Source: Clostridia bacterium (lineage in GTDB: Bacteria > Bacillota > Clostridia > Oscillospirales > UBA644). From it: 64,000 nt of DNA. How positions within the stretch are numbered: position 1 is the first letter of the stretch; the number at the start of each line of letters is the position of its first letter. A program made the position numbers and the translations under genes. Shown here piece by piece: positions 25,036 to 29,802 of this stretch. The stretch spans positions 1 through 64,000 of the forward strand of contig JAGASR010000037.1 in NCBI GenBank assembly GCA_017621705.1. The letters run 5' to 3'. Under the pieces are notes generated by a model. It had not been told where the DNA came from. It saw only the letters and a list, made by a program, of their open reading frames with translations, and did no database searches.

Positions 25036-26697
25036 ATGATCGAATTTGAAAAAGATTTTGAGAAGCAGAGTGAGGTATATTTGGAGTATCTCTATCGCCT
25101 TGCTCAAAAACTGTATAACGATTGTCCGAATATTGATGCCTTGATACAGGACACGCTTACGGTCTTGATTATAAAAGTCCGCAATGGAGAAAAGGTTGAA
25201 CACACCAAGGGATTTTTATCTGCAGTTCTCAAAAATAAATACAATGCATGGCTTCGTGAAAAGTACAAAGCAGAATACGTAGAATACTCTGACGGTACTA
25301 TCAGCGAAACACACAACGATTTAACAGAATGGGAAGAAGCCCAAAGCAAAAAAGAAGAATACGAATCGGTACGCCGTGAGATCGGACGTCTGATCCGCAT
25401 TTATCGTGATGTCACAGTACGCCACTACGTTCACGGCCAAACTGTAGATCAGATTTGCAAAGAGTTGGGTCTACCCCGAGGAACGGTATTATCCCGTCTG
25501 TCAACGGCAAGAGATCAGATCAAAGAGGGACTTGAAAATATGGAAAAATATTCGCAAATCAGTTATGAACCTAAATCCGCATCCATTGGTATATGGGGCA
25601 ACTGCGGACTAAACAGCGAACCGTTCTCTCTTATGCGATCGGATATTGAAGCTAATATATTGAATTTGGCATATGAAAATCCCGTATCGGTGCGTGGCAT
25701 CGCTGATACAATGGGAATGCCATGCGCATATCTTGAACCTATAATTGATATTTTAATTCATGGTGAACTGATGGGAAGGACATCGGGGGGACTTGTTTAT
25801 ACCCGATGCTTCGTGCAGAAATACGAAGAGGCTTTTGGAGATATTCCTGCGCAAGAAAAGCTTGCCGATAAATATGCCTCCCGTGTATGGGAGATCGTTT
25901 GGAAACATCTTGAACCGCTGACCGAGCATGATGACTTCGCGGAAATGTCCGACAAGCAAAAAGCAACAATGCTTTTGTTTATTATGAATCAGATGCTAAG
26001 TGAAGTTTTACGTAATAGCCGTCCTGATTCGGAAAATACTCCTAAATATCCACCTGAACGTCCCGATGCAGGCAGATGGCTTGCAACAGTGACCGTATAT
26101 GGGCATAATCAAAAAAATATTAACCAGTATGAAGGCTCCGGTCCCGTACGTGTTTCATACAGTTCAAATAATGATGGCAAGGTTGATTGTCAGATGTTCG
26201 ATTGTCAATCGCTTTTCGGTGATGCACATTGGGCATATAATAAGTTCAAATACAGATGTTCTCTGCAGAGTATTCTGAGGTTCTACGCATCATTGTTGCC
26301 TTGTGATGTTAAAATAGACACCGAGCTTATTTATGAGTTGATTCCCGAATTTGAAAAACTGTGTATAATAAAGCGTGACACTGACGGCGAGATCAAGCTG
26401 GATATTCCCGCATTGCCATTTACCGAAGTGACAGAGCATTGGAATCCTGTTTGCGAAACAATAAAGAAGGAACTATATGATCTGTTGTCGGATGATCTGC
26501 GTATGCTTTGGTCCAAGACAAGGAACCGTGTGCCCAAGAATGTTGATGAAGCGGAATATTTCACTTATGCCGGAATGATGGGCGCGTATGTAAAAGCTCA
26601 GCTTCTCGCGATCGTGAACAAGAATCTGTTGCCTTATCCTGTGGTTATCGGCAAAACACCGCTGATTTACATTGCCTACCGAAAAAAGGATGCGTAA
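25036..26697 (+). CDS. ECF-like sigma factor with long C-terminal extension
   Basis: Residues 1-170 are a sigma-70/ECF unit. A region-2-like helical bundle (LIQDTLTVLIIKVRNGE, TKGFLSAVLKNKYNAWLREKY) is followed by a clear region-4 helix-turn-helix (GQTVDQICKELGLPRGTVLSRLSTARDQIKEGL, about 132-165). Residues 171-553 are extra: a winged-helix-like part (SVRGIADTMGMPCAYLEPIIDILIHGELMG) and then about 300 residues of unknown fold. ECF factors are usually near 180 residues, so the extension is probably sensory or autoregulatory. No anti-sigma gene is adjacent. RBS AAAGGAG. Confidence 0.8.
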   Translation: MIEFEKDFEKQSEVYLEYLYRLAQKLYNDCPNIDALIQDTLTVLIIKVRNGEKVEHTKGFLSAVLKNKYNAWLREKYKAEYVEYSDGTISETHNDLTEWEEAQSKKEEYESVRREIGRLIRIYRDVTVRHYVHGQTVDQICKELGLPRGTVLSRLSTARDQIKEGLENMEKYSQISYEPKSASIGIWGNCGLNSEPFSLMRSDIEANILNLAYENPVSVRGIADTMGMPCAYLEPIIDILIHGELMGRTSGGLVYTRCFVQKYEEAFGDIPAQEKLADKYASRVWEIVWKHLEPLTEHDDFAEMSDKQKATMLLFIMNQMLSEVLRNSRPDSENTPKYPPERPDAGRWLATVTVYGHNQKNINQYEGSGPVRVSYSSNNDGKVDCQMFDCQSLFGDAHWAYNKFKYRCSLQSILRFYASLLPCDVKIDTELIYELIPEFEKLCIIKRDTDGEIKLDIPALPFTEVTEHWNPVCETIKKELYDLLSDDLRMLWSKTRNRVPKNVDEAEYFTYAGMMGAYVKAQLLAIVNKNLLPYPVVIGKTPLIYIAYRKKDA

Positions 26698-26800: not shown

Positions 26801-27580
26801 ATGATTGAAATACAGATGTGGGACAACGTTCCGGCAGTTGACGGTTTTTCACCCGTACTTGAATATTATCCCGCTGAAAAGAAAAAAACAGATGCGACAG
26901 TCGTTATCTTCCCCGGTGGCGGATATGCAGGCAGAGCAGGTCACGAGGGCGAAGGATATGCGCTTTTCCTTAATTCGATCGGAATGGATGCGTTCGTTTG
27001 CGAATACAGAGTATCCCCCTATCGCTTTCCGATTCCCCTGCTCGATGCGAGACGCGCTGTAAGATACGTAAGAGCGAATGCCGAAAAATACGGTATAGAT
27101 CCGAATAAGGTTGCGGTCATGGGTTCTTCAGCAGGCGGACATCTTGCGGCGTTTGTTTCGACGTACAGAGATCCTATCGAATATGAAGGAGCAGACGAGA
27201 TCGATGCTATCTGTCCGATCCCGAATGCGACGATCCTCTGCTACCCCGTTATTCATCATCCCGATGAAACAAACGTTGCGCATGTCGGAAGCTACGAAAA
27301 CCTTATGGGAGAAAATAAAGATTACGAAAAAGTTTCTCCCGATCTGCTTGTAACAGACACGACTCCTACTGCGTTTATCTGGCACACTTCTGATGACGGC
27401 GGCGTTAACGTTATAAACAGCTACCTTTACGCTACGGCGCTCAGAAACCACAATATAGAGCATGAAATGCATGTATTCCCCAACGGTCCTCACGGCCTCG
27501 GCCTTGCGAAAAACGACCATCACGTTTCACAGTGGACTGTTTCTTTGACGAACTGGTTTGTGTATTTAGGTTGGCTGTAA
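26801..27580 (+). CDS. Alpha/beta-hydrolase, acetyl-esterase-like
   Basis: A compact 259-residue carboxylesterase: the oxyanion motif FPGGGYAGRAGHEGEG (residues 37-52), the nucleophile elbow GSSAGGHLA near residue 107, and a C-terminal HVFPNGPHGLG His motif with the acid in HTSDDGGV. It belongs with BD-FAE/acetylxylan-esterase-like enzymes that deacetylate sugars or hydrolyse small esters. No signal peptide is present, so it acts in the cytoplasm. It is monocistronic with a strong AAGGAG site. Confidence 0.85.
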   Translation: MIEIQMWDNVPAVDGFSPVLEYYPAEKKKTDATVVIFPGGGYAGRAGHEGEGYALFLNSIGMDAFVCEYRVSPYRFPIPLLDARRAVRYVRANAEKYGIDPNKVAVMGSSAGGHLAAFVSTYRDPIEYEGADEIDAICPIPNATILCYPVIHHPDETNVAHVGSYENLMGENKDYEKVSPDLLVTDTTPTAFIWHTSDDGGVNVINSYLYATALRNHNIEHEMHVFPNGPHGLGLAKNDHHVSQWTVSLTNWFVYLGWL

Positions 27581-27596
27581 AATTATATTAAGACAA

Positions 27597-27640
27597 AACC
27601 ACCCGAGGAAGAGCTGTAAAACTCTTTTTCGGGTGGTAAA
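27597..27640 (+). terminator. Probable terminator after the esterase gene
   Basis: ACCACCCGAG pairs with TTCGGGTGGT around an inner AGAG/CTCT stem; the T tail is weak. Confidence 0.5.
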
Positions 27641-27701: not shown

Positions 27702-27729
27702 TTGCATTTTTTAGAAAATATGATATAAT
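27702..27729 (+). promoter_or_regulatory. Promoter of the leader peptide/ABC exporter unit
   Basis: TTGCAT (27702-27707), 16-bp spacer, TATAAT (27724-27729). It is about 230 bp upstream of the ABC gene, leaving a long regulatory leader. Confidence 0.7.
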
Positions 27730-27757
27730 AAAGGAAATAGACATAAGGAGTTTTTAT

Positions 27758-27799
27758 ATGCGTTGTTACTGTTGCTATAAGCCCTATATCAATAACTGA
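27758..27799 (+). CDS. 13-residue leader peptide MRCYCCYKPYINN
   Basis: A short frame of 13 codons plus TGA has an ideal AAGGAG ribosome site 7 bp upstream and sits 29 bp after the -10 box. The peptide is rich in Cys (three) and Tyr (three). Its stop codon abuts the first arm of the attenuator hairpin, the position expected of a leader peptide whose translation state controls the RNA fold. Stalling by a ribosome-targeting drug, or scarcity of Cys- or Tyr-tRNA, are possible signals; sequence alone does not say which. Confidence 0.7.
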   Translation: MRCYCCYKPYINN

Positions 27800-27932
27800 T
27801 CCGTAAAGATAATTCACTAAAACATAGATTTTCAAGGTCAGCGATGCTGCCCTTTGTTTGGTGCTGTCTTTACGGATTTTTTAGACAGCACCTGAGACTG
27901 ACGCCGCAGGTGCTTTTCCTGTGGCGTTTTTA
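27800..27932 (+). promoter_or_regulatory. Transcription attenuator with overlapping hairpins upstream of the ABC exporter
   Basis: Four competing pairings are visible. (1) TCCGTAAAGA (27800-27809) with TCTTTACGGA (27867-27876), followed by six T: a terminator. (2) GGTGCTGTC (27860-27868) with GACAGCACC (27884-27892), excluding pairing 1. (3) AGCACCTG (27887-27894) with CAGGTGCT (27907-27914), excluding pairings 2 and 4. (4) ACGCCGCAGG (27901-27910) with CCTGTGGCGT (27918-27927) plus a T run: a second terminator just before the ABC ribosome site. This interlocking set is a classic attenuation layout. Confidence 0.75.
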
Positions 27933-27959
27933 TTATTGGTATTTATTAGGAGGAAATCT

Positions 27960-29717
27960 ATGTTTAAGGGCTTATTTTTCTTTATAAAACAAGGATGGAA
28001 ATATGATAAACGTTATATTATGTGGAACATTCTAAGTCAACTCGTCAATGCTCCTCTTCCGTTTTTTTCTGCAGTACTTCCCAAACTTATTATCGACGAA
28101 TTAACGACGCAAAAGCGCATTATGTTTCTCATTATTTATGTTACTGTATTTACAGGATATGTATTGACCGCAAGAATCTTTTCATCGTATTTTCAAAGAG
28201 ACGGATTTACAAGGCGATGTCAAGTTGCGGCAGAATTTGACAATGATCTTCACCGACAATTATATGAATGTGATTTTGAAAACCTTGAAAGTTGCCATTT
28301 TCTTGAAATGCAAGAAAAAGCAAAGAAATTTCTATATTGCAACTGGCATGGTTTCGGCTATCTCTTGGATTGCGTATTGAATATCGGAGGATATATTATC
28401 GGGTTGGCAGGAGTAATCGCAATTATTGCGATGCTGGATGTCTGGATCGTTATTTTATTCGTACTTTTTTCGTTGTTGGGCGCATACATCGATAAGATAA
28501 TCAAAAAGAAAGTCAAGAAAATGGAAGATACGTTGATCTTTGATCAAAGAGGATGGTCTTATTATTCAAGTCTTTTTGAAAAAGCTGAATACGGAAAGGA
28601 ATTTCGGATATATCAAGTTGGGGAATGGTTATTAAATAAAGAGAGAGAGTTTTTTACTCGCGCGAATTCAACATTGAAAAAGCAAAACAAATATTTTATG
28701 ATATCTGATCATTTTAACGCGCTTTTCACATTTGTCCAACAAGCAGTTGCATACGGCTATTTGATATATTGCGTTATATCGAAAGACATGTCGTTAGGAT
28801 CTTTCTCAATGTATATCAGCGCCATTACAGCGTTCGCCGCAAGTTTCAGACAAATTACGAGTTCTCTTGTTGAGATACGCACTTACGATATGTACTATGA
28901 GGATCTCGATAAATATCTGTCTATCCCTAAGAACATAAGAAAAACAGGAAATAATAAAATCAAAATCAAAGATCACGTAATAGAATTTAAAAATGTTTCT
29001 TTCCGATATCCGGGGAGTAGCCTCTACGCTTTGCAGAATATCAACATAAGGATTAATCCCCAAGAAAAACTTCTACTTGTTGGCGAAAATGGTGCAGGAA
29101 AATCAACGTTTATAAAACTGCTTTTAAGGTTATATGATCCGACGGATGGAGAAATATTGTTGGACGGCGTAAATATTAAAACGATTGATTACGATAATTA
29201 TATTAAATTATTTTCAGCTGTTTTTCAAGATTTTCATTTATATTCGTTTTCGATAAAAGAAAACGTGGCTATGTCCAACAGAGCTAGTGATGAAAAAATC
29301 GACTGTATTTTACGAAAAGTAGGATTGGGTGACAAGATCGACGGGTTAAAAAACGGAATCAATACAAGCTTACATAAGAATCTTGATGAACAAGGTTTTG
29401 AGCCATCCGGTGGAGAAGCGCAAAGGATCGCAATTGCACGCGCACTTTTTAAAGATGCTCCGATAGTTGTTTTGGATGAACCAACAGCAGCGCTAGACCC
29501 TCGTGCAGAGTTTGAAATATATGAACAGTTCAACGATATGACGACTTGTAAAACCGCAATATATATTTCTCATCGATTAAGTAGTGCTAAATTTTGCGAC
29601 AAAATAGCTGTATTCGAAAATAGCCACATTACAGAATATGGAGACCACGACTGTTTAATTAATAATAACGGGAAATACAGCGAGTTATTCAATATGCAAG
29701 CAGAATTTTATACATAA
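27960..29717 (+). CDS. ABC exporter, fused permease and ATPase
   Basis: A 585-residue half-transporter: a six-helix membrane domain over about residues 1-330, then an ATPase with Walker A GENGAGKST, a signature variant PSGGEAQRIA, Walker B VVLDEPTAALDP and the H-loop His in YISHRLS. It probably works as a homodimer, or with a partner elsewhere, exporting a drug, peptide or lipid. The start at 27960 is set by AGGAGG 6 bp upstream; an upstream GTG would overlap the attenuator stem. Composition is clearly more AT-rich than the flanking genes, suggesting horizontal transfer. The leader peptide and attenuator suggest inducible drug resistance (inference). Confidence 0.9.
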   Translation: MFKGLFFFIKQGWKYDKRYIMWNILSQLVNAPLPFFSAVLPKLIIDELTTQKRIMFLIIYVTVFTGYVLTARIFSSYFQRDGFTRRCQVAAEFDNDLHRQLYECDFENLESCHFLEMQEKAKKFLYCNWHGFGYLLDCVLNIGGYIIGLAGVIAIIAMLDVWIVILFVLFSLLGAYIDKIIKKKVKKMEDTLIFDQRGWSYYSSLFEKAEYGKEFRIYQVGEWLLNKEREFFTRANSTLKKQNKYFMISDHFNALFTFVQQAVAYGYLIYCVISKDMSLGSFSMYISAITAFAASFRQITSSLVEIRTYDMYYEDLDKYLSIPKNIRKTGNNKIKIKDHVIEFKNVSFRYPGSSLYALQNINIRINPQEKLLLVGENGAGKSTFIKLLLRLYDPTDGEILLDGVNIKTIDYDNYIKLFSAVFQDFHLYSFSIKENVAMSNRASDEKIDCILRKVGLGDKIDGLKNGINTSLHKNLDEQGFEPSGGEAQRIAIARALFKDAPIVVLDEPTAALDPRAEFEIYEQFNDMTTCKTAIYISHRLSSAKFCDKIAVFENSHITEYGDHDCLINNNGKYSELFNMQAEFYT

Positions 29718-29725
29718 GCAATGCA

Positions 29726-29762
29726 AAAACACGGTACAGTCAAGACTGTACCGTGTTTTTTG
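29726..29762 (+). terminator. Terminator after the ABC exporter
   Basis: AAACACGGTACAGT / ACTGTACCGTGTTT stem with a four-base loop and T run. Confidence 0.85.
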
Positions 29763-29802
29763 ACTGTCCTTTTGTACACATAAAGGACTCTTGTGTTTTT
29801 AA

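Follow-up and report, generated by a model that had tools for sequence, protein, structure and literature searches.

A probable ribosome-arrest-controlled attenuator with a conserved leader peptide precedes an ABC exporter gene in Clostridia

Upstream of an ABC exporter gene in a Clostridia bacterium genome (64,000 nt analyzed, positions 1 to 64,000 of contig JAGASR010000037.1, assembly GCA_017621705.1; hereafter the window), we found a short leader open reading frame (ORF) that ends at the 5′ arm of a terminator hairpin, T1, and contains the motif KP[FY][IL] (Table 1). Comparison with homologous loci and folding predictions indicate that this region is probably a transcription attenuator controlled by ribosome arrest. 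By default, the ribosome would complete the leader and depart, leaving the T1 5′ arm free, and RNA polymerase would halt at T1. In an arrested ribosome, with the Ile/Leu codon of KP[FY][IL] or the next codon in the P-site, the leading edge would cover the T1 5′ arm, T1 could not form and the exporter would be transcribed. Further downstream, the hairpin T2 would act as a second roadblock. The model presumes that the leader ORF is translated and that arrest occurs at KP[FY][IL]; the trigger would be either an antibiotic that binds the ribosome or the substrate of the exporter itself, and the exporter would then remove it.

Table 1. Positions of the leader, hairpin and exporter features in the window.
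Feature	Position	Strand	Details	Basis
Probable promoter	27702-27729	+	TTGCAT, 16 nt, TATAAT preceded by TGA (extended -10)	Read by eye
Shine-Dalgarno of leader ORF	27745-27750	+	AAGGAG	Read from sequence
Leader ORF	27758-27799	+	MRCYCCYKPYINN*; ATG 27758-27760, TGA 27797-27799, 13 codons	Read from sequence
KP[FY][IL] motif of leader ORF	27779-27790	+	Codons 8-11	Homologue comparison
Terminator T1	27800-27876	+	Arms 27800-27809 / 27867-27876 (10 bp), inner-paired loop; TTTTTT 27877-27882	Folding, covariation
Alternative hairpin B:C	27860-27892	+	Arms 27860-27869 / 27883-27892, -16.0 kcal/mol, excludes T1	Folding
Alternative hairpin D:D′	27888-27913	+	Arms 27888-27894 / 27907-27913, -11.3 kcal/mol, excludes B:C and T2	Folding
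Terminator T2	27900-27931	+	Arms 27900-27910 / 27918-27928, U-run 27927-27931, -19.1 kcal/mol	Folding, terminator scan
Shine-Dalgarno of exporter gene	27949-27954	+	GGAGGA	Read from sequence
ABC exporter	27960-29717	+	585 aa, MsbA/P-glycoprotein type, membrane and ATPase domains in one chain	Domain search, alignment

The first-pass annotation of the window had described a 13-codon frame with a good ribosome site that ends at the first terminator arm, and the sequence agrees, with one small amendment: the T1 5′ arm directly adjoins the leader stop codon, and the A of TGA gives one extra pair. By eye, the Shine-Dalgarno sequence of the leader is strong, and the ORF lies ~20 nt downstream of the probable start site of the extended -10 promoter. 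The -35 element is weak (3/6); our promoter scan asks for 4/6, and the exact TTGCAT/TATAAT pair is absent from its list. Farther upstream, a strong terminator-like hairpin (27598-27637) separates an esterase-like gene (26801-27580) from the leader promoter, and positions 25036-26697 encode a protein of 553 aa whose N-terminal region is ECF-sigma-like (Sigma70_r4 matches) and whose long C-terminal part has no Pfam match.

The controlled gene encodes a membrane exporter. Domain search placed a single ABC_tran domain at residues 358-510, and the protein aligns to MsbA over residues 142-580 and also to P-glycoprotein, part of the membrane region included. An ABC-F resistance factor, which requires two ATPase domains and no membrane domain, was rejected on these grounds. 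None of the best 25 NCBIfam models reaches its cut-off for this protein. Because the Walker A, signature, Walker B and H-loop motifs are all intact, the exporter probably works as a homodimer. Just 3′ of the gene, an inverted repeat followed by a T-run (29730-29763) is likely a terminator that makes the exporter a single-gene transcript. We also considered an exporter frame extending upstream through the hairpins; it is open in several homologues but was dropped since it is not open in all.

Searching genome contigs with the exporter recovered 13 loci. Six have readable upstream DNA (L002, L003, L004, L005, L007 and L008; 49-61% identical to the window protein), two that are cut off by contig ends (L006 and L009) were left out of the leader count, and the remaining five are distant (31-39% identity). 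All six readable loci contain a short ORF at the position equivalent to that in the window (VRCYCCYKPFLHK, MKNFAYKPYINF, MIKCYSFKPFINSEL, MFKNYAPFIYTEL, MIKNYSFKPFIFSEL and MKSMYKPFIIG). An RNA model built from these six loci and the window found one further leader, MRMCNNIKPFIFA, in genome G427, where the exporter is 49% identical. In this sample of eight sequences, which includes three close relatives (83-85% identity) and counts L002 and L045, identical in sequence, as one genome, the leader peptide and terminator that had been proposed for the window are conserved before the ABC exporter: a short ORF with P[FY][IL] lies no more than 300 nt from the ABC start in 8/8 clade members with upstream sequence, versus 0/12 exporters at 43% identity or less. 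Seven of the eight clade leaders have the full KP[FY][IL], and leader length ranges from 11 to 15 codons. The chance level is low, as P[FY][IL] turned up in 104 of 4000 mononucleotide-shuffled upstreams. Whole-genome scans with the RNA model gave a single match per genome, always at this ABC gene, in 8 of 10 genomes; the two genomes that went unmatched are those with a truncated exporter contig.

Conservation within the leader is concentrated in the motif. Amino-acid identity over the aligned codons is 0.75 for Lys, 1.00 for Pro, 0.57 for the Phe/Tyr position and 0.75 for Ile, and it collapses right after that, to 0.14 and then 0.04 in the two codons that follow. The invariant Pro is encoded by both CCC and CCT, Ile by ATC or ATT (with one Leu) and Lys by AAG or AAA, and the Lys, Pro and Ile codons together yield 32 synonymous pairs. 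These codon patterns indicate that selection is acting on the leader peptide, and the abrupt end of conservation is what would be expected if Ile occupied the P-site of an arrested ribosome. In a general translation sensor, the T1 arm would be masked by any delay with a ribosome still at the ORF end, whatever the peptide sequence. Such a sensor would accommodate our folding results, as masking at the stop codon abolishes T1 too, and drug responses with little dependence on sequence context are reported for very short leaders, among them MRI of cplR (PMC10201436). It is nevertheless unlikely here, given that the motif keeps its amino acids while its codons drift synonymously, that conservation ends exactly at the would-be P-site residue and that the position of the stop codon is not kept. 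Counted from the Ile codon, 8-9 nt separate KP[FY][IL] from the T1 arm in 8/8 sequences, and the stop codon has shifted into the T1 arm in L004, L005 and L007. Since the spacing is fixed though the stop codon moves, the motif, and not termination, appears to be the site that matters, as arrest within the leader would predict.

Covariation, which had been put forward together with the original reading of the window as a check on its pairings, is present in the T1 stem. At the T1 base, 95% of the 80 cells in the eight-sequence alignment are paired, and three pairs have changed on both sides, with C-G to U-A changes in four sequences. The covariation score (0.329) was reached by 0 of 500 shuffles, and sliding the partner strand by one to three columns lowers pairing to 33-67%. 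An earlier seven-sequence alignment that took in the weaker inner stem had performed poorly against its control, its covariation score being reached by 20 and its paired cells by 59 of 500 shuffles. The eight-sequence alignment indicates that selection is also acting on the T1 hairpin. Short ORFs and hairpins are common in intergenic regions of this kind, and T2 is missing in 4/8 homologues, so some parts are unconstrained; we therefore weighed a chance short ORF before a tandem terminator of the ordinary kind, there to shield the exporter gene from its neighbor. That reading is scarcely credible in view of an ORF conserved in 8/8 sequences at a fixed spacing and in 0/12 distant exporters, the covariation of T1, the terminator-like hairpin that already follows the upstream gene, and the location of T1 and T2 between the likely promoter and the exporter gene.

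We modeled how a ribosome on the leader would affect T1 by equilibrium folding of each transcript with a 30-nt ribosome footprint masked. The mask assumes that the ribosome covers ~15 nt ahead of its P-site. In the window, predicted T1 formation was 1.00 for a P-site at codon 7, 8 or 9, then fell to 0.90 at Tyr10, 0.58 at Ile11 and 0.28 at Asn12, reaching 0 at Asn13 and at the stop codon; a slightly different measure gave 0.85 at Ile11, 0.46 at Asn12 and 0 at Asn13. The same course was predicted in all eight homologues, with T1 at or above 0.86 as long as the P-site had not reached Ile; values were 0.06-0.85 at Ile, 0.02-0.50 at the following codon and at most 0.12 at the one after that. In 8/8 sequences, T1 is thus lost under masking only once the P-site reaches the Ile codon or beyond. 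The initial proposal of control by ribosome stalling is supported in silico for T1, whose formation is set by the modeled ribosome position in every homologue, and does not extend to T2 of the window. Ribosome masking of the T1 5′ arm is predicted to suffice, with no anti-terminator arm, to prevent T1.

The window peptide holds three Cys and three Tyr in 13 residues, and that of L002 three Cys and two Tyr, a composition that invites comparison with amino-acid attenuation, in which the leader would sense charged tRNA-Cys or tRNA-Tyr, and the terminator would be relieved by ribosomes that wait at Cys or Tyr codons. A response to Cys or Tyr limitation, as first suggested, finds no echo in the homologues: Cys is missing from four of the eight leaders (L003, L005, L007 and L008) and Tyr from one (L056), so that only K, P, [FY] and [IL] are conserved and no conserved run of a sensed amino acid, as in biosynthetic leaders, is seen. 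A ribosome at any Cys codon, or at a Tyr codon before KP, would moreover sit too far upstream to mask T1 (1.00 at codon 7), and the controlled gene encodes an exporter, not a biosynthetic enzyme. We regard this alternative as very unlikely.

Attenuation before ABC transporter genes has precedents. In Bacillus subtilis, the translated leader bmrB precedes the multidrug ABC exporter genes bmrCD, and ribosome-targeting antibiotics are reported to relieve an intrinsic terminator (PMC4191407). With its leader and terminator before an ABC exporter, this is the nearest known system in function. The same text describes bmrB as a 53-residue ORF that contains the terminator and controls a transporter gene pair (PMC4191407), whereas the window has a leader of the 11-15-codon type that ends at the terminator arm and a single half-transporter gene; compared in these features, the two leaders appear unrelated. 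Streptococcus pneumoniae patAB likewise has a terminator-based attenuator before an ABC exporter, but induction is tied to fluoroquinolones and DNA damage, and the accessible portion of the description contains no leader peptide (PMC4319486). At cplR and vmlR, a drug-stalled ribosome on an upstream ORF relieves a terminator, yet these ORFs have three codons (MRI and MIN) and precede ABC-F ribosome-protection factors rather than membrane exporters (PMC10201436). A further study lists 205 candidate attenuators at ABC transporter genes (PMC2965389), which suggests that this kind of attenuator is common though rarely characterized.

As in attenuators of the bmrB/ermK/vmlR kind, a short ORF with a ribosome site lies between promoter and terminator (the ORF is present in 8/8 clade members), and ribosome position decides in silico, for T1 only, whether the terminator forms (8/8). 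The leader can be assigned to this known kind, and its motif is undescribed as far as the literature searched tells. Openly licensed papers yielded none on KPFI as a leader peptide, nor on YKPYI, and the openly licensed literature on leaders, ABC genes and attenuation, covered by titles and abstract openings, held no description of this leader. No Rfam release 15 family reached its gathering score in the window leader or the seven homologue leaders; the best sub-threshold match was suhB (20.3 bits against a cut-off of 41). A leader that precedes tet_protect genes (L071, L072 and L073, from the family of G772), which we take to be tet(W)/tet(O)-like, shares this layout: a promoter, then a short ORF that lies at the first terminator arm, then a second terminator and the ribosome site of the gene. 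Its peptide is MRQGILK without KP[FY]I, and it precedes a ribosome-protection GTPase. We dropped identity with this leader on comparing MRQGILK with MRCYCCYKPYINN, only one tet_protect type having been compared. In L071-L073, the MRQGILK codons themselves form the first terminator arm. Attenuation also regulates tet(M) of Tn916.

More tentatively, and with the odds somewhat against it, KP[FY]I may be an undescribed nascent-chain arrest motif: a 9-11-residue peptide that arrests only with a particular compound, plausibly the substrate of the exporter, and that, together with the exporter, makes up a compact self-regulated cassette occurring at unrelated sites in scattered gut Clostridia. If arrest is real, this would be a new short, sequence-defined arrest peptide that is directly testable, and it would offer a route to the exporter's substrate, since the inducer should be, or resemble, the pumped compound. 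It would also mean that exporter genes of gut commensals are wired to ribosome stress. The geometry is simple, an arrest motif 8-9 nt from a terminator arm, and can be searched for in other genomes.

The exporter clade is rare and scattered. At E 1e-120, the exporter matched 6 of 394 genomes of the order, three of them in the clade (the window's own genome, G058 and G006), and at 1e-110 it matched 7 of 391 genomes of the class, two in the clade; in the family of G772, it matched 2 of 299 genomes, with G772 alone in the clade. Genes flanking the exporter differ between loci (by eye, among the flanks listed). Because the clade is rare and scattered and its neighboring genes differ, the distribution suggests that the cassette moves together with its leader. 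Viral contigs contained no relatives of the exporter. Similarity to the leader DNA was found in three plasmid records at E up to 1, almost only in promoter-like stretches, and in 19 of 20 genomes of the family at E up to 0.1, where besides the window's own match the pieces span ~17-51 nt and are mostly promoter. The RNA model matched 6 of 391 class genomes; two matches are real (the window's own and G427), and the four weak ones (E 0.004-0.01) proved on reading not to be leaders. A motif-plus-arm pattern applied to 398 genomes of the phylum matched 33 genomes, with 35 places listed. Automated in-frame reading covered 29 of these, four (L104, L105, L074 and L093) were read in context, and those in G1102:C22, G1428:C44, G1331 and G1354 were left out of the reading. 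Among the matches read, none except the window is leader-like; those read in context lie inside or antisense to ordinary genes, and the L088 match is antisense within a 711-nt open frame.

Folding of the window recovered all four pairings described at the outset, two of them with T-runs, and they are mutually exclusive as claimed. The T1 fragment folds at -29.9 kcal/mol (z -6.1; beaten or equalled by 0 of 200 shuffles), and the whole leader has a z of -3.6. The strand at 27883-27892 is a good pairing partner for the T1 3′ arm, and pairing of the T1 3′ region with the sequence after the U-run beats dinucleotide shuffles at the 10% level in 7/8 homologues (0, 0, 1, 11, 16, 27 and 28 of 300 shuffles; L056 fails with 165/300). 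Its suggested role as a shared anti-terminator arm has to be given up for T1: the strand is made once polymerase has left the T1 U-run, too late to rescue transcription there, and B:C may only keep the T1 arm from re-forming. No anti-terminator pairing that acts before polymerase leaves T1 was found, the exclusive arm lying 3′ of the U-run; such pairing is common in, and not required of, attenuators of the bmrB/ermK/vmlR kind. In L004, L005 and L007, the partner strand of the T1 3′ arm (~1475-1490) extends over the edge of the exporter Shine-Dalgarno sequence, hinting at an extra translational layer in this subgroup.

Two-step control through tandem terminators, also part of the first-pass annotation, finds no support in T2, which is present in only 4/8 homologues (the window, L003, L004 and L056) and is predicted whatever the ribosome does, at 0.89 or above in every modeled ribosome state of the window. 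T2 of the window does not depend on ribosome position under masked folding, whereas T1 does. Relief of T1 alone would hence leave a terminator ahead. In the window, D:D′ is predicted to form before T2 in the no-arrest state and to be mostly absent when the T1 arm is fully masked, and could delay T2 in the no-arrest state. In the masked state of L003, an extended pairing is predicted to hold the T2 5′ arm before the T2 3′ arm appears. The L056 leader (1385-1484) has a T1 hairpin without a U-run and keeps T2, so only T2 could terminate there, and from this locus T1 and T2 may be interchangeable in evolution.
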